DNA of 64,000 bases from Trichosporon coremiiforme. Taxonomy: Eukaryota > Basidiomycota > Tremellomycetes > Trichosporonales > Trichosporonaceae. Shown in pieces: positions 3,173 through 36,045 of the stretch. Every line of letters starts with the position of its first letter. Positions within the stretch are counted from its first letter, which is position 1. Below the pieces are notes generated by a model that saw only the letters and a list, made by a program, of their open reading frames with translations, was not told the DNA's origin and did not search any database. The stretch lies in the NCBI GenBank assembly GCA_039545355.1, contig BCJJ01000009.1, positions 1,467,757 through 1,531,756 on the forward strand, read 5' to 3'. A program made the translations under genes and the position numbers.

Positions 3173-3243
3173 TACATCCAGGGGGAATCGAACCCCCACC
3201 GCATCGATGGCAACGATGCATGATACCATTTCACCATAGATGT
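3173..3243 (-). tRNA. tRNA-Gly (anticodon GCC)
   Basis: Intronless 71-nt tRNA. A 7-bp acceptor stem pairs ACATCTA with TGGATGT (one G-T pair), followed by discriminator A. The D stem is GTGA/TCAT. The anticodon stem CATCG/CGATG closes the 7-nt loop TTGCCAT, reading GCC. The T arm is GGGGG-TTCGATT-CCCCC. The internal A box and B box (GGTTCGATTCC) are intact and a T6 terminator follows. Confidence 0.95.
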
Positions 3244-29112: not shown

Positions 29113-29807
29113 TCAGAACATGCCCCGCTGGATCCCGCCCCGGATTACCTTCGGCCTGGTCCTGAGCCCCTGCCTGGCTACGGCGTGGTGTGCGACCTCA
29201 TTCAGGTCGTTTGGTCGGTTGTCTGTGTGTCAGCACTTCCGTCCCCATGCTTCCTGCGCCTCCGCCTCCGCTATCCCCGCCCTCTGCACAACCGCCTCCG
29301 GCGCAGACTCAAGCGCTGGCTCCGGCACTCACCCCCCTTATTCCTGCTGAGATCCGACCGATGCGCCCAATGTTCCCTCCTAAACCTCTCCTCCCTCCTT
29401 CTCTTCTTCTCCTCCTCCTCCATTTTCTCTTTCTCCCTCTGTTCCACCTCCTCCTTCCATATCCTCTCCAACCGCTCACTCTTCTCCTCTCGATGAGCCT
29501 GTGCGAGCCGTTCATCCAAATCATTGCGTTTATGAAACCGCCGACCAAACTGGTGCTCGTACTGCATCGCTGCTAGGCAGACGTCGATCAGAGACTGGAG
29601 GGGGAGGTGCAGCTCGTGTGCTTCCAGCAGAGCCGCGAGGAGGCCGAGAGCGACACACGCGTGCGTCGTCTTGTGTCGTATCAGCACCGCGTCGGACGTC
29701 GATACACGCTCCACGAGGTAGAAGTACGTCGCGCATCGGGCTAGGAAGAGAAGGGCGGCCCACAGACCACAGAGTGGGCGCGTCAGAAGCTTGAGTAGGC
29801 CGGGCAT
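29113..29807 (-). CDS. Membrane-anchored coiled-coil protein, 194 aa
   Basis: Exons 29333-29807 and 29113-29222. The 110-nt intron has donor GTGAGT and acceptor GCTGACACACAG, and the second exon reads a clean 36-codon frame ending RGGIQRGMF. An N-terminal helix (LCGLWAALLFLARCATYFYL) is followed by a second hydrophobic stretch (ACVALGLLAALLEAHELHL) and a highly charged coiled coil (EEVEQREKEKMEEEEKKRRR). An in-frame ATG at 29912 would add 35 residues. Function unknown. Confidence 0.55.
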
Positions 29808-29908
29808 TGAGATGCTGAAATGACGATTGCTGAGGTGAGATGGACAGAACTGTCGCATTGTCGTTACACATCCTCTTGGCACTTTTGTGTACAACTCCTC
29901 TGCTATCG

Positions 29909-30211
29909 TCATGCACTGTCTGGATGCGACTCCTCCGAGACCTCCGAGTCGTTACTCACATCGAGACCTTCCACTACCGCCCTGCTTCGTAGACACAAGA
30001 ACTCAATCTCGGCCCTGGTGGCATATACGCTGTCTCTGTACTCCGCCTTGCTGCGCCTCCTCGCCTGCCCCGGCGTCAACTCGACCCTCATCCCAGCGCC
30101 GTACCAGCACCCGCTCTCGAGTTCCGCCACCCCCTGTCTCCACTCAGGCAGGAAGTGGAGCTTGTCCAGCCGCCTCAGCTGGCCCTGCACGTCGAGGCGG
30201 GAGTGGGCCAT
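29909..30211 (-). CDS. Hypothetical protein, 100 aa, directly after an in-frame stop
   Basis: ATG 30211 directly follows, in the same frame, the TAG stop of the 30212-30697 frame. Sequence starts MAHSRLDVQGQLRRLDKLHF and ends in an acidic/Ser tail (NDSEVSEESHPDSA). It may be an independent gene, but the zero-gap in-frame arrangement suggests it is the C-terminal part of a longer protein cut by a nonsense codon or joined by readthrough. Confidence 0.4.
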   Translation of the reverse strand: MAHSRLDVQGQLRRLDKLHFLPEWRQGVAELESGCWYGAGMRVELTPGQARRRSKAEYRDSVYATRAEIEFLCLRSRAVVEGLDVSNDSEVSEESHPDSA

Positions 30212-30697
30212 CTAGCCCGCTAAAAGGATGATGCAGGCTTCTTCTGGGCAAGTGGCGAGATGACGAGAGGGGAGGCCGACGAGGTCCCATGCCAATGCTG
30301 TTGGAGGGTCGATTGTCCGCTCGAGGCGGGGGAGGAGGGCGCGGACTGCTGTCTCGCTTGCAGGGCGTCGGTTGAGGTTTGCTTCTGTGTCGGCTTTCGT
30401 GTTGGCTGCGGCGTTGGACTTTGAGGCCCCGTTCACTCGGCGCCAACGGGGAGTCGTACGTGCCGAACTGCGATCGTTGACGGAGACGACGTGCGCCTCG
30501 CTTGACCTCTTTGCGTAAAGGGCGACACACCAGCCCTCAGCTGACTGCGCTACAATTACGAACCGCATGGTCCCGGAGTCGGTTGGAAAGACATCATCGA
30601 GTAGTGCCACGAGCACGTCCTGCCGAGTGGCGGACTGGATGCCGGCCACGACTGAACGAGCTTTCCCTGGCGTGAATGTGGACAGCTCTGGAGACAT
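30212..30697 (-). CDS. Hypothetical protein, 161 aa (possibly 5' part of broken gene)
   Basis: The first plausible ATG is at 30697 (MSPELSTFTPGKARS); the frame is open upstream to 30841 and an extra 5' exon is possible (an acceptor-like TGCTGACCAG lies at about 30737). Hydrophobic strands VLVALLDDVF and MRFVIVAQSAEGWCVALYA resemble in order the relics at 31.0-31.5 and 31.5-32.4 kb. Ends IILLAG then TAG, immediately followed by ATG in frame. Confidence 0.4.
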   Translation of the reverse strand: MSPELSTFTPGKARSVVAGIQSATRQDVLVALLDDVFPTDSGTMRFVIVAQSAEGWCVALYAKRSSEAHVVSVNDRSSARTTPRWRRVNGASKSNAAANTKADTEANLNRRPASETAVRALLPRLERTIDPPTALAWDLVGLPSRHLATCPEEACIILLAG

Positions 30698-30914
30698 GAG
30701 GGTGGAGAACTTGTTGCTAGACCCGGGAAGTCTGGTCAGCACATGGATAGGACAGAGGGAAAGCTGATGGAGCAGAAGGTCATGAACTCGAAGGAGGACA
30801 GAAGCTGGAGTAGTAAGATCTACACCAGAAGACGTCGGCAAGCAGGGATGGCTGCGCCCCCGCGTATCATCGCTATGGCAATCACTCTTGCCTCTTGCGA
30901 ATCTATCTAGTCAT

Positions 30915-31463
30915 TCAGACTCTCTCCATCCTACCAGAGCTGTAACCCATCACTGACATCCGGCAGCGTTGTCGATGGCGTTGGCGGAGGCGTGAGTTGC
31001 CAAATGTCGAGGCTCCTCCACGACACCTCTTAGCCAGCGAGAAAGTCGAGCAGATCCCTCTTGACGAATTTCGGCCAGATCGCAACACGGTGCACGAGCT
31101 CGACCGCCTCCTGAGCCGTGACCTACCGGAGTCATAGCAGCAGCAGCGCCGCCCACGGCTCGCCCGGCATACAGTAGGCTCGCAGTCGTGGTACACATCC
31201 ATCCATTTCGTTGGCGCGGGAGCCATTATCGGCTTTTTCGACAGCGCCGCTCTCCTTATCACCGCCCGCATGCCCATCTCCTTCCAATGCTTACGAGACA
31301 GGCGTATGGTTGCGCCTGGCTCGGACACCATGTACGCCTGCTCGTCGGAGAGGAGGACGATGTGCCACCGCGTCCCGCCCTTGTGCTTGTTCATCATTGG
31401 GAGAACGTCCCATCTCGTCCTTGAGTCGCCGGTGCCGTACAGCAACTTCAGCACCTGCTCCAT
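30915..31463 (-). pseudogene. Decayed relative of the 30.2-kb ORF
   Basis: ATG 31463 opens MEQVLKLLYGTGDSRTRWDV, then WHIVLLSDEQAYMVSEPG and KHWKEMGMRAVIRRAAL, all protein-like. After about residue 100 the frame turns to Arg/Cys/Ser low complexity while another frame carries AQEAVELVHRVAIWPKFVKR DLLDFLAG (in pieces), then a stop. No good splice signals join the two, so a frameshift is the simplest reading. A tiny intron after CCG|GTAGGT cannot be excluded. Confidence 0.4.
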
Positions 31464-32473
31464 CACGTTGGGCGGGGATTCCTTCGGGGGATGGCAGACG
31501 ACCTCCCTCTTCTACAAGGGTTCCATGGCAGCTCGAGATGATTTGATGGCCGCGTGCCGCCTCTCAATTCCCTCCTGCTCAAGCAAATCCCGAAGACCAC
31601 CCTTCTCGCATCCCTCACGAATCCCAGCACCGGACCACTGGCCGCCCCGTATCTCGTCAATACCTTGCTGCAGTGGTCCGTAAACTCGAAGAAGGGACTC
31701 TCAGATGGCAGCGGGAAAGAGGCAGGCTGAGCTAACCACGCCGCCATGAGACAGGCACGCACGGGGCCGGGAATGTGCTTCGCTTGGTCGTTTGAGTACA
31801 TGCCACCTGTGGGCTTCGGTGTCGTGTGGGAGGCCCTGTCCCTCGTATGCCGCGTCGGTGAGGCGCCAATTCCAGTCCTCTTCCGATGCCTCGGCCACCC
31901 CGTTGGCAATAGCGACTGCACCCGGTAAGGATAAGAAGCCTTCTCGGTGAAGTACCCGATGCGGCCGAAGGTATTAGCCGACGAGCTCCAGGACACGAAC
32001 CATTGACTCGTCCTTGTGCCGACCACCACGGACTCCTTCCTCGAGACGGGCTCGTCGCCTAGAAGCCACACTCCGACGCGCGGATGGGCGAACGATGCGA
32101 TTCTCTTCAACAGCCTTCGAACTCTGTTGTGAGAGAAATCGGGTGAAGCACAGGCCCAGTCGTTTGAGCGGTCCCAGAAGTCTGCACGGTGGCATCTGTA
32201 GGATGAGGGACCTCGGCTTTGATGACGTCGGAGGGCTCGGTTTAGATAGGCGTGGTGGGCTCCGCTTTGATGTTCGTTTTGAGCTCGTCCTACGGTTGCG
32301 GTGGCGTTGCCCTCGATCGGTGCCGCGGGCTCCTGCTCGGCGGTCACCGTGGGCTCGGCTTTGGCAGCTTCGGTACGCTTTCTCTTGAAGGGCTTCTTGA
32401 TGGGCGTCGGCGGCTCCGAATTAGTGAGGGAGGCGCGCTTCTAATTGCGCAATTGTTTGCGCGTTGCACCCAT
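31464..32473 (-). pseudogene. Gene relic with stops and frameshifts
   Basis: ATG 32473 is followed after ten codons by an in-frame TAG. The frame continues with a Lys/Pro/Ala-rich stretch (PPTPIKKPFKRKRTEAAKAE), then the coding signal jumps to another frame (TEPSDVIKAEVPHPTDATVQ) that also has a stop, then back (RLLKRIASFAHPRVGVWLLG, TSQWFVSWSSSANTFGRIGY), then to a third (EEDWNWRLTDAAYEGQ), and finally to GIREGCEKGGLRDLLEQEG before a stop. At least four frame changes without introns make this a decayed gene. Confidence 0.55.
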
Positions 32474-33140
32474 GGCGATAACAGGATGTGAGCTGCCGGA
32501 GTGCGGACGTGCGGGCTCGTAGATGCGCGGAGGCGACTAGTCTTGGTCCGGCTGAAGGCCAGTCGGTTCAGCAATTGGAGATTGCTGGGCCGTGGTCAAT
32601 ATTAAATACGCGGGTGAGTCATAGACTTTGAAGTTGGCATGGAGCAAACAACGCCACATTGCTCACAGATCGCCACGGCCTGTGCTGATGCCTCACCGTT
32701 GCCGCGAGGCAGGCGGCGCAGTGCGGCGTCTCTTCACCAGTGGTCCATCGATCCAAGAGCCTCCCGGCCCTTTGGCTGCGCTTCTGTCTCGACTGGTGAG
32801 TAGCCGTCAGTGCGGTCCGATACGCTTAGACGCTGTAGCCACCGCTGTGTACGCCAGAGGAGCGTGGCGTGAGGTCAGCCATTGTCAGGAACTCGACTCG
32901 GCAAGTTCGAGAGAGCAAGGGCTCGGTCATAACTTCTGATCCGATGCACACATATGGGTTGCAATTCATAGGGCTTTTACTTCTGAACTAGCCATCCTCA
33001 TCATCTAAGGGCTATGACCGCAGGCGACCGGGTCGCAGGTGCAATCGACCTCACCGTTGATCCGTCCTGCCAGTACCACGGCCTAGTGCGTCGGGGTAGC
33101 TGGAGCAATCGATGGGCTCCGGCTCGGCCGAAGGGTCGTC
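32474..33140. other. Intergenic, no gene seen
   Basis: No protein-like frame on either strand; it lies between the relic block and the repeat peptide precursor. Confidence 0.4.
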
Positions 33141-33620
33141 CTAGTTCCAACGCAGAGGGCCGGAACAGGCGGGAATCTCGGGCGTCTTGGAGCAGTCAAT
33201 GGGCGGGGGGTCGCGCTTGTCCCAACGCAGAGGACCGGAACAGGCCGGGATCTCGGGCGTCTTGGAGCAATCGATGCGCTTGTCCCAACGCAGAGGGCCA
33301 GAGCAGGCAGGGATCTCGGGCGTCTTGGAGCAGTCGATGGGCTGAGGGTCGCGCTTGTCCCAGCGAAGAGGACCAGAGCAGGCGGGAATCTCGGGCGTCT
33401 TGGAGCAGTCGATGGGCTGAGGGTCGCGCTTGTCCCAACGCAGGGGACCGGAGCAGGCAGGGATCTCGGGCGTCTTGGAGCAGTCGATGCGTCTGTCCCA
33501 CCGCAGCGGGCCGGAGCAGGCGGGGATCTCAGGCGTCTTGGAGCAGTCAAGCGGCTCGGGGACTGGCGCGGCGAGGGCGAGTGTCGAGAGAAGAGCGAGG
33601 AGAGTGAGTTGGAGCTTCAT
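33141..33620 (-). CDS. Secreted precursor with six Kex2-bounded peptide repeats, 159 aa
   Basis: ATG 33620 opens a signal peptide (MKLQLTLLALLSTLALA) followed by APVPEP and six tandem copies of a 17-residue core, DCSKTPEIPACSGPLRW. Copies 1-5 end in the dibasic Kex2-type site DRR or DKR; copy 6 ends WN and stop. Some linkers then carry DPQP or DPPP, X-Pro dipeptides removable by a Ste13-like dipeptidyl aminopeptidase, so every copy would be trimmed to begin with [LI]DCSK. Each core has two Cys eight residues apart, suggesting a disulfide loop. The core is invariant at protein level while the DNA copies differ at many synonymous positions. The layout is that of alpha-factor-like and Kex2-processed repeat (KEP) precursors. 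Receptor and role unknown. Confidence 0.85.
   Translation of the reverse strand: MKLQLTLLALLSTLALAAPVPEPLDCSKTPEIPACSGPLRWDRRIDCSKTPEIPACSGPLRWDKRDPQPIDCSKTPEIPACSGPLRWDKRDPQPIDCSKTPEIPACSGPLRWDKRIDCSKTPEIPACSGPLRWDKRDPPPIDCSKTPEIPACSGPLRWN
33144..33551 (-). repeat. Six coding tandem repeats (63-75 nt units)
   Basis: Units vary by presence of the 12-nt DPQP/DPPP linker. Synonymous differences are frequent: the Ser-Gly-Pro-Leu-Arg-Trp part differs silently among the copies. Confidence 0.9.
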
Positions 33621-33662
33621 GGTGGCTGGTGTGCTTGTCAAAGTGTCTGCCGTGAGTGGTCC

Positions 33663-33669
33663 TTATATA
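33663..33669 (-). promoter_or_regulatory. TATA box of repeat peptide precursor
   Basis: TATATAA on the minus strand, about 43 nt upstream of the ATG at 33620, suggesting a short leader and inducible or strong expression (inference). Confidence 0.6.
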
Positions 33670-34552: not shown

Positions 34553-35680
34553 TTAGAAGCCACGGCTGCGGATGATGCCAGCGACGCTCCGTCCAAACTC
34601 CTCGATGAGGGAGATGGCACTGCCGGCCGCGCCTTCGATACCGCTCGCGACACCAGCGTACTCGTCCATCTTGCGCAGATTCGAGCGCAGTGCAGCCAGG
34701 GCCGGACCAAGCTGAGGGTTCGCGTCCGCGGTAACCGCTGGCGAGTCGGTCGGGAGGGGCGGGAGCGGCTGAAGAAGGTGCGATTCTGGAGTCAGCTAGA
34801 GCTACGGGTTGGGAAGCTGTGGGCACGAATGGTAACGCCCCATGGCTGACACGAGACTCCGCTCACTGCTCGATTTGTTCGAGAATGACTCACCGGCCTC
34901 AAGATACGCCATCATGACAGCAACACGCGTAGCGTACCACTCGGTACCAAACCCGCGGTCTTCCCTCATCTCGCCCTTTCCGCGGTTCGGCCTCGCGACG
35001 TTGACGGCGCGGTCAGCAATCTGCCAAGCGTACTGCACGCCGGCGAGCGGATTCGGCGGCGTCGGGATGCGGCCGAGGTTGAGCGCCGTCATCGTGTTGA
35101 CCTCATTGTTGGCGCCAAACGGTCCCGCACGAGATCCGGGGAGGGGAAGGATGTTGCTGAATGTCTGCAGGAGGGTGGTTGCGCCCGGCGGGATGGGGAT
35201 CGACGAGGGGCCAACAGTGTGGTTCGTCGCGAGCAGGGCATGGGCGTCCAGTAGCGAGTTGCCAGCCGAGGCACTGTGCCACAGTCGCCTTGACAGAGGG
35301 TCGAAGAGCACCTCGTCTACCCGCCTGCTGCCGCCGCCAGGCGTCATCTGGGACAAGCCCTGGGCACACCAGGCGTCAACGAGAGCGCGAGAAGGAGCGA
35401 GGCCGGGACCGAAGAGAATGTCGAGGGCATTCTCAGCGGAAGTCTCAGACAGGCACTTGTCAGAAGCCTCAGCAGACTCGGGGGAAGAAGACGTCAATCC
35501 GGCGGGAGGAGCGGAGGGCGAGACGGAGGGGGAAGGGTCGAGGACAGGTGTTTCGGTAGCGTTCGCGACGGTCGAAGAAGATGGCAAGGAGCGCATCGCG
35601 TCGGCGAGCGCACGCCGCGTGAAGCTCGTCCGGTTCACATGCGGCAGCGCAGCGTTCAAAACGGCTGCTCGGAGGGACAT
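34553..35680 (-). CDS. Coq9-like ubiquinone biosynthesis protein, 339 aa
   Basis: Exons 34894-35680 and 34553-34785; the 108-nt intron has donor GTGAGT and acceptor GCTGACTCCAG. The N-terminus MSLRAAVLNAALPHVNRTSF continues with TRRALADAMRSLP, resembling the Coq9 entry (A-A-L-P-H-V ... FTRRAL). A C-terminal part with FGTEWYATRVAVMMAYLEAE recalls the Coq9 WYxxR...Y segment, and the protein ends in an amphipathic helix (LIEEFGRSVAGIIRSRGF). Coq9 is a mitochondrial lipid-binding partner of the Coq7 hydroxylase. An in-frame ATG at 35746 would add 22 residues. It shares a 365-bp promoter region with the mitochondrial AspRS gene. Assignment is moderate because the middle is divergent. Confidence 0.55.
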
Positions 35681-36045
35681 GGTGTTGGTGTTATGGGCTG
35701 TTGTGAATGGAAGGCAGCTGCCAGATGAGGGCGCGGCGCTCGTCATGTTTCGCAGCGAGCTCGGAAATCCACGGCGGCGGCAAAGCAATTCTCGGGTGGA
35801 GGTTGACGCTTAGGCTAATGGTTCCTAATGAGGCTTGTCCGATAACCACGTGTGACTAGCTCTATTTAGGATTTGCAATACGAGCGCATATGAGCGGAGC
35901 AGAGTGGAGGGCGTTGGTGGAGGTACAGTCGCCAGACGTCGGTTGTGCGAGGAAAAAGTCCTTGGATCGAGAGTTCAGTTCCCATGTATGACCTCACCAC
36001 CTCGGTCACTCTCCCTCTTGCTTCCTTCACATTCACCGACGCACC
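35681..36045. promoter_or_regulatory. Shared divergent promoter, two mitochondrial genes
   Basis: 365 bp between the start codons of the Coq9-like gene (minus) and mitochondrial AspRS (plus). No other gene fits. No specific factor site is claimed. Confidence 0.5.

Follow-up and report, generated by a model that had tools for sequence, protein, structure and literature searches.

Introduction

KEX2-processed repeat precursors (KEPs) are a defined class (PMC6339444, PMC7329392, PMC9769878). Basidiomycete KEPs with STE13 signatures are described in PMC6339444, where they are suggested to be peptide hormones with non-mating roles or, non-exclusively, effectors; a-type pheromones serve basidiomycete mating in the same account. 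Mushroom KEPs of this kind have been detected as processed peptides, cores with a C-terminal Trp have been noted among them, and six C. cinerea KEP deletions are reported without an apparent phenotype (PMC9769878). C. cinerea KEPs have also been expressed in Komagataella (Pichia). The function of STE13-signature KEPs is left open in the relevant passages of PMC6339444 and PMC9769878. According to PMC7329392, Tremellomycetes average only 1.00 KEP per strain.

Here we describe a locus of Trichosporon coremiiforme that is a KEP with an STE13-type X-Pro signature, and thus a member of this already reported class. An initial annotation of the region had set its alpha-factor/KEP layout against the short CAAX pheromones of basidiomycetes. 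That contrast dissolves, as STE13-signature KEPs are documented in basidiomycetes, including a two-cysteine one from T. oleaginosus (PMC6339444).

Results

Genome setting

The stretch of DNA that we analysed (the window; 64,000 nucleotides) is C9:1467757-1531756 of a 42.0-Mb genome in 134 contigs. A 70-kb stretch of C10 aligns with it in segments of at least 100 bases from window position 2 to 63999; gaps lie between the segments, and their order is kept except for one repeat hit. This collinear alignment identifies C10 as the second subgenome in this region. We kept 89 ORF matches between the window and C10, and for the 24 with at least 200 aligned residues the median identity is 91.4%; parental amino-acid divergences of 7% and 17% are given for the hybrids T. 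coremiiforme and T. ovoides in PMC6642101, a study that also includes RNA-seq of T. coremiiforme. The Sec6 protein encoded next to the precursor gene is 98% identical to that of T. asahii CBS 8904; among named genera, Naematelia comes next, at 66%. These comparisons point to a hybrid genome with two subgenomes, and its assignment to Trichosporon, through this one protein, is well supported.

The genome also holds two STE3 genes, at C11:829520-830446 and C23:648011-648976, one matching in one piece and the other in three. They are probably both mating-type alleles within one hybrid genome; PMC6730849 lists MAT alleles A1 and A2 for T. coremiiforme JCM2938 and A1 and A1 for T. ovoides JCM9940. 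The STE3 profile (PF02076) found its match in this genome, yet in 0 of 14 control genomes.

The precursor accounts for 2 of the 89 rows. Of the 87 other conserved window ORFs, a Pfam scan covered 39, with 15 matching and 24 not. The matches comprise an amino-acid transporter (three exons), a class II aminoacyl-tRNA synthetase (two exons), Sec6, a TPR protein, three protein kinase pieces, an alpha/beta hydrolase, a bromodomain protein, an aldo/keto reductase, and pieces of NAD synthase and carbon-nitrogen hydrolase. None of the Pfam matches of these 39 ORFs is a peptide-tailoring enzyme. Adjoining the KEP gene, two conserved ORF pieces on the minus strand (34556-35809; 93.8% and 88% identical to C10; no Pfam match) are probably exons of one gene. 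On the other side, window 29775-32979 is about 2.3 kb longer than the C10 interval 1436003-1436874. No second copy of this interval was found in the genome and no element was recognised in it, and the extra sequence would be an insertion on one side or a deletion on the other. A tRNA-Gly gene (gcc) lies at window 3173-3243 on the minus strand.

Layout of the precursor gene

The six-copy repeat ORF proposed in the initial annotation, with its signal peptide, APVPEP, DRR/DKR sites and X-Pro linkers, was confirmed on the minus strand (Table 1). Its parts follow in the order MKLQLTLLALLSTLALA, APVPEP, L-core-DRR, I-core-DKR, DPQP-I-core-DKR, DPQP-I-core-DKR, I-core-DKR, DPPP-I-core-N. The ER signal peptide was judged by eye, with the homeolog comparison of the leader as added support. 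All six copies of the core DCSKTPEIPACSGPLRW have identical amino acids, and every core but the last is followed by a basic site, as had been noted before: one DRR (copy 1) and four DKR (copies 2-5), with N and the stop codon after copy 6. DPQP occurs twice and DPPP once between cores, and two of the five inter-core junctions are without a dipeptide linker. Tandem Repeats Finder recovered the array in four overlapping rows (scores 359-673), and the array probably grew by duplication of one three-core block.

Table 1. Features of the KEP locus, in window positions.
Feature	Position	Strand	Remarks
KEP-type precursor gene	33620->33141	minus	159 aa and stop (ORF translation); no intron needed
Signal peptide MKLQLTLLALLSTLALA	33570..33620	minus	By eye: Lys, hydrophobic core, A-x-A before the cut
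APVPEP	33552..33569	minus	Three X-Pro dipeptides ahead of core 1; identical in homeolog
Core 1 DCSKTPEIPACSGPLRW	33498..33548	minus	Then DRR (33489-33497), then I
Core 2	33435..33485	minus	Then DKR (33426-33434), then DPQP-I (33411-33425)
Core 3	33360..33410	minus	Then DKR (33351-33359), then DPQP-I (33336-33350)
Core 4	33285..33335	minus	Then DKR (33276-33284), then I
Core 5	33222..33272	minus	Then DKR (33213-33221), then DPPP-I (33198-33212)
Core 6	33147..33197	minus	Then N, then stop codon
Stop codon	33141..33143	minus	At the position of the Kex2 site expected after core 6, compared with its own repeats and the homeolog
Two 213-nt blocks	33345-33557 and 33132-33344	minus	Three cores each; repeat finders
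Remnant of the homeolog's second core and tail (DPSAEPEPIDCSSYPDAL...)	33005..33140	minus	Apparently untranslated; frame broken further on; possible old stop near 33005
TATA-like element TATATAAGGA	33660..33669	minus	About 40 bases upstream of ATG; TATATAAGG also in homeolog promoter

The core is short, polar and proline-rich, and it is not cationic, having one K and one R but two or three acidic residues. Its Cys loop, C-S-K-T-P-E-I-P-A-C, has ten residues. The loop of Bowman-Birk/SFTI-type inhibitors has nine, C-T-x-S-x-P-P-x-C. This type was rejected for the window loop, which is one residue longer and lacks both a Ser at P1' and a Pro-Pro; PDB searches with the precursor and with one repeat gave no match either. 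We also considered candidalysin-like lysis, against which the short, polar, proline-rich character of the core has to be set.

Reading frame and selection within the array

The six cores differ at 10 nucleotide columns, all 10 of them third codon positions, and the differences amount to at least 13 nucleotide changes with no amino-acid change. In the consensus core, 38 of the 153 possible single changes are silent; given the base-change types seen, the probability that all changes are silent is 7.4e-7, a guide value as the copies are not fully independent. Translated in the remaining five frames, the six copies yield 6, 6, 6, 2 and 6 different peptides. Compared block with block, the 213-nt units have a pS of 0.377 and a pN of 0.044 (71 codons, of which 70 were counted after the stop-bearing pair was dropped). 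Silent-only variation at third positions indicates that the frame is read and the peptide selected, and because gene conversion would erase silent differences too, selection on the peptide accounts for the pattern more simply. The core is therefore under selection within the array, and the minus-strand frame is the one that is read. An overlapping plus-strand ORF (33014-33607) was rejected as the conserved frame, as its peptides differ between copies. Splicing around the stop was likewise set aside, as no plausible donor adjoining the stop codon was seen by eye.

The homeolog and the decayed remnant

A homeolog lies at the syntenic place in the second subgenome, C10:1437162-1436941 (L003 5162-4941). 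Its protein reads MKLQLSLLALISTLALAAPVPEPLDCTKTPEAAVCHGSQHW-KR-DPSPEPGT-IDCSRHPEALTCGIG-RR-DHGDVD followed by two stop codons, and it retains the signal peptide, APVPEP, the Cys spacing, a KR site and an X-Pro linker. The two promoters align, TATA-like element included. Over the 26 codons of the leader, 24 of 26 residues are identical, with 7 silent and 2 non-silent changes (pS 0.326, pN 0.035; pN/pS about 0.1). The homeolog has no array: its first core shares the pattern DC-[ST]-[KR]-x-P-E-...-C with the window core and differs from it at 8 of 17 residues. Behind this first core comes a second one of another sequence.

Across these 17 codons, core 1 and the homeolog core give a pS of 0.268 and a pN of 0.277, and copies 2-6 give a pS of 0.40-0.66 and a pN of 0.26-0.27. 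Silent and non-silent changes number 13 and 0 within the array against 3 and 11 between the homeologs (copy 1, 15 codons, rounded; Fisher p 3.4e-5), and the p value rises to 1.3e-3 with copies that carry more silent changes. The core is thus fixed within the array and clearly changed between the subgenomes. That it evolves faster than the leader is only suggested, the contrast in rates having a p of 0.013 with copy 1 and of 0.09 to 0.22 with the other copies.

Beyond the stop codon, the window sequence aligns with the homeolog's second core, and a genome match at C9:1500813-1500965 (E 1.2e-10) covers core 6 and part of this remnant with one TAG inside. To judge from this alignment, it looks as if the first core of the window gene was amplified sixfold, as if the second core and tail decayed behind the stop, and as if reading now terminates at the Kex2 site after core 6. 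Frame-disrupting variants in a relative, which the initial annotation had named as a sign against its reading, are found in part: the leader and two cores of the homeolog are open, but the 3' tails of both copies look broken in the alignment. Loss of the 3' ends seems to have happened separately in the two copies, with sequencing errors as another possible source of the breaks. The diverged core and broken-looking tails would also fit a fast-turnover gene of little importance.

Predicted processing and product

The signal peptide would direct the precursor into the ER, Golgi kexin would cleave after DRR/DKR, and a Kex1-like carboxypeptidase would take off the two basic residues. A membrane-bound dipeptidyl aminopeptidase of STE13/DPP type would strip the X-Pro dipeptides (APVPEP, DPQP). 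As the linkers consist of X-Pro dipeptides only, trimming should yield a single N-terminus, I/L-DC, and every spacer would lead to the same 19-residue peptide, [I/L]DCSKTPEIPACSGPLRW[D/N], which one disulfide (Cys3-Cys12) probably closes. The product had earlier been predicted to end in Trp; Kex2/Kex1 trimming would instead leave one residue after it, so the predicted end is W-D in copies 1-5 and W-N in copy 6. Enzymes of DPP-IV type are not known to cleave before proline. For this reason the DPPP linker of the sixth copy may resist trimming, and that copy may keep DPPPI- at its N-terminus. The computed [M+2H]2+ is 1043.490 for the disulfide form [I/L]DCSKTPEIPACSGPLRWD, 1042.998 for the Asn form, 985.977 without the last Asp and 1246.091 for the untrimmed DPPPI...N form; the homeolog products would give 990.938 (LDCTKTPEAAVCHGSQHW) and 864.396 (GTIDCSRHPEALTCGIG).

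Genes for such processing are present. Kexin-type P-domain genes lie on C4 and C2, with a transmembrane segment downstream by eye, and kexin gives the C4 ORF its best PDB matches, over the P-domain, the only region compared. DPP-IV-family genes (DPPIV_N) lie on C7 and C21, both with a short tail followed by an N-terminal transmembrane segment (by eye), which is the STE13/DAP2 layout; the best PDB matches of the C7 copy are DPP4, and the family assignment covers STE13 and DAP2 alike. There are 14 exon-level matches to S10 serine carboxypeptidases, Kex1 not being singled out among them. A structure prediction from the two-row alignment of precursor and homeolog gave a mean pLDDT of 42.4 and a pTM of 0.16, with 147 of 159 residues below 50; the model has no fold and says little, neither supporting nor excluding a looped product.

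Searches for relatives

A protein database search with the precursor returned 1832 candidates, none at E <= 0.001, and one with the homeolog returned no candidate sharing three words. As a control, the neighbouring Sec6 retrieves T. asahii CBS 8904 from this database, in which small repeat ORFs may be unannotated. PDB searches with the precursor and with one repeat gave no match up to E 10, and Pfam gave none for the precursor. The core had been called unfamiliar from described peptides, and this held: no description of its piece TPEIPAC was found in the full-text literature, with supplementary tables and most subscription journals outside the scope. For Trichosporon combined with KEX2 repeat proteins, STE13, or quorum sensing or secreted peptides, PMC6339444 alone was found. 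A description of exactly this gene or of a T. asahii relative could exist elsewhere. The core sequence is thus one for which no description was found; the precursor class itself is known.

Within the genome, 11 matches were obtained, of which seven are the homeolog and the window gene, two are loci of a second, Gly-rich KEP and two lie on C13 (L017 and L020). The last two were inspected and dropped as chance. The Gly-rich KEP is present in both subgenomes (L018, C6:1693060 onward, plus strand; L019, C5:1815753 downward, minus strand) and reads MK[V/F]TLVTLALLSTLAQAAPAPAAVLAERQGGGGQWGGGGGWKR..., with many W-KR repeats, apparent introns between the repeats and a few CC-C cores such as DQDCCPCDGSGDPNGWKR; L019 includes a run of N. 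It resembles the window gene in its leader (MK-TL-TLALLSTLA-AAPAP), in cores ending W-KR and in its occurrence in both subgenomes, but it differs in its Gly/Trp-rich cores, its apparent introns and its few CC-C cores, and the match is weak (E 0.05 and 0.07). Paired W-K-R sites gave eight genome matches, three in the Gly-rich KEP loci and five elsewhere, against one for the reversed-pattern control, while paired W-D-K-R sites gave three, all in the window gene, against none in the control.

Discussion

What the peptide is for

We find a signal peptide (by eye), identical repeats split by KR/RR and kexin P-domain genes in the genome, together with X-Pro dipeptides after the Kex2 sites and membrane aminopeptidase genes of DPP type. 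The layout, the frame, selection within the array, the homeolog, and the kexin P-domain, DPP-IV-family and serine carboxypeptidase genes are the observed base of the KEP reading. The alpha-factor/KEP layout seen at the outset gains support from the silent-only variation, the conserved homeolog leader, and the kexin P-domain and DPP/STE13-type genes. It is very probable that the locus encodes a secreted KEP precursor processed into a repeated peptide, a view shared by the readings in which the peptide acts on other organisms or coats the cell surface. Our tentative preference is that, after export, the product would act as a diffusible non-mating signal between cells of the fungus. The main rival, rather unlikely in our estimation, has the same processed peptide aimed at other organisms, in defence, competition or host interaction. 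The core diverges between the subgenomes more than the leader does (pN 0.26-0.28 against 0.035, a contrast that is only suggestive), as arms-race peptides do, but rapid core change also fits species-specific signals. The authors of the C. cinerea study lean towards an action on other organisms in the biotic environment (PMC9769878), and effectors are named as a possibility in PMC6339444. On the other hand, the core is not cationic, and synthetic versions of C. cinerea KEP peptides showed no antibacterial activity against the strains tried (PMC9769878), which is weak evidence as these are different peptides. A structural role like that of the Ustilago maydis Rep1 repellents, with the peptide coating hyphae and altering surface properties, seems improbable. 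Rep1 is a basidiomycete KEX2-processed repeat precursor whose peptides form amyloid-like fibrils (PMC9769878), but it is given without an STE13 signature in PMC6339444, whereas the window gene has one, and the short, polar, proline-rich core also speaks against such a role.

Although the precursor shares the signal, X-Pro/X-Ala trimming and Kex2 sites of alpha-factor, we regard an alpha-type mating pheromone for a Ste2-like receptor as very unlikely. The genome has two very different STE3 genes (25.6% identical), each Trichosporonales MAT allele has STE3 and a nearby single pheromone precursor gene in the account of PMC6730849, and the window precursor is without a Pfam match and is present in both subgenomes. 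The STE2 profile (PF02116) had no match in the genome but none in the 14 control genomes either, which is not evidence of absence. It is hard to credit a cyclised dikaritin-type RiPP made with UstYa (DUF3328) enzymes, as UstYa substrates typically have a Tyr-containing core and the window core has no Tyr. Dikaritin precursors do share the KEP layout, and a DUF3328 neighbour accompanies 103 of 1680 basidiomycete KEP genes (PMC7329392), but UstYa was not matched among the 39 of 87 other conserved window ORFs scanned, 24 of which matched nothing. A genome-wide UstYa search also gave 0 matches, but with 0 of 14 control genomes matching it is not evidence of absence. An unexpressed tandem repeat, open by chance, is similarly hard to believe: the broken-looking 3' tails and the lack of a homologue in the protein database would suit it, but it is contradicted by silent-only variation in one frame of six, and the leader (pN/pS about 0.1) and promoter are conserved in the homeolog.

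Beyond a signal between cells, we offer as a speculation, and a doubtful one, that the locus is a species-specific self-recognition or density signal whose message was rewritten between sister species while the delivery leader was kept. If so, the hybrid cell would carry two peptide “dialects”, a six-fold single-message array and a two-message precursor, and one hybrid genome would hold both sides of a peptide-signal speciation event. The subgenome contrast makes this KEP more than a routine addition to its class, and it would illustrate how a mixed-core precursor turns into a uniform array. It is also a convenient test case, being small, with nearly a single predicted product of exact mass and a built-in subgenome comparison.

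Comparison with known systems

The ascomycete alpha-pheromone precursors share a signal, X-Pro/X-Ala trimming, Kex2 sites and repeats with the window gene, and some have two Cys, but the window core does not fit the two-Cys alpha-pheromone motif RFCHLPGQGCSK quoted in PMC6339444. Cryptococcus Qsp1 is likewise a small secreted signalling peptide that a tremellomycete yeast derives from a precursor; it matures outside the cell through the serine protease Pqp1 and is imported by Opt1 (PMC7537855), whereas the window layout points to repeat processing in the Golgi. Coprinopsis KEP 490115 and the Pleurotus AADW peptides (PMC9769878) have in common with the window gene the layout, X-A/X-P linkers, a Trp at the core end and small secreted peptides. 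The peptides quoted there are short and without Cys, in contrast to the window peptide with its 17-19 residues, ten-residue Cys loop and one residue after Trp. The KEP QSWGGCGGRGTPCW of T. (Cutaneotrichosporon) oleaginosus, as given in PMC6339444, also belongs to the Trichosporonales and shares Kex2 sites, an STE13 signature, two Cys and a Trp at or near the end. Compared by core peptide rather than by precursor, it ends in PCW where the window peptide ends in LRW-D/N, and the cores are otherwise unlike.
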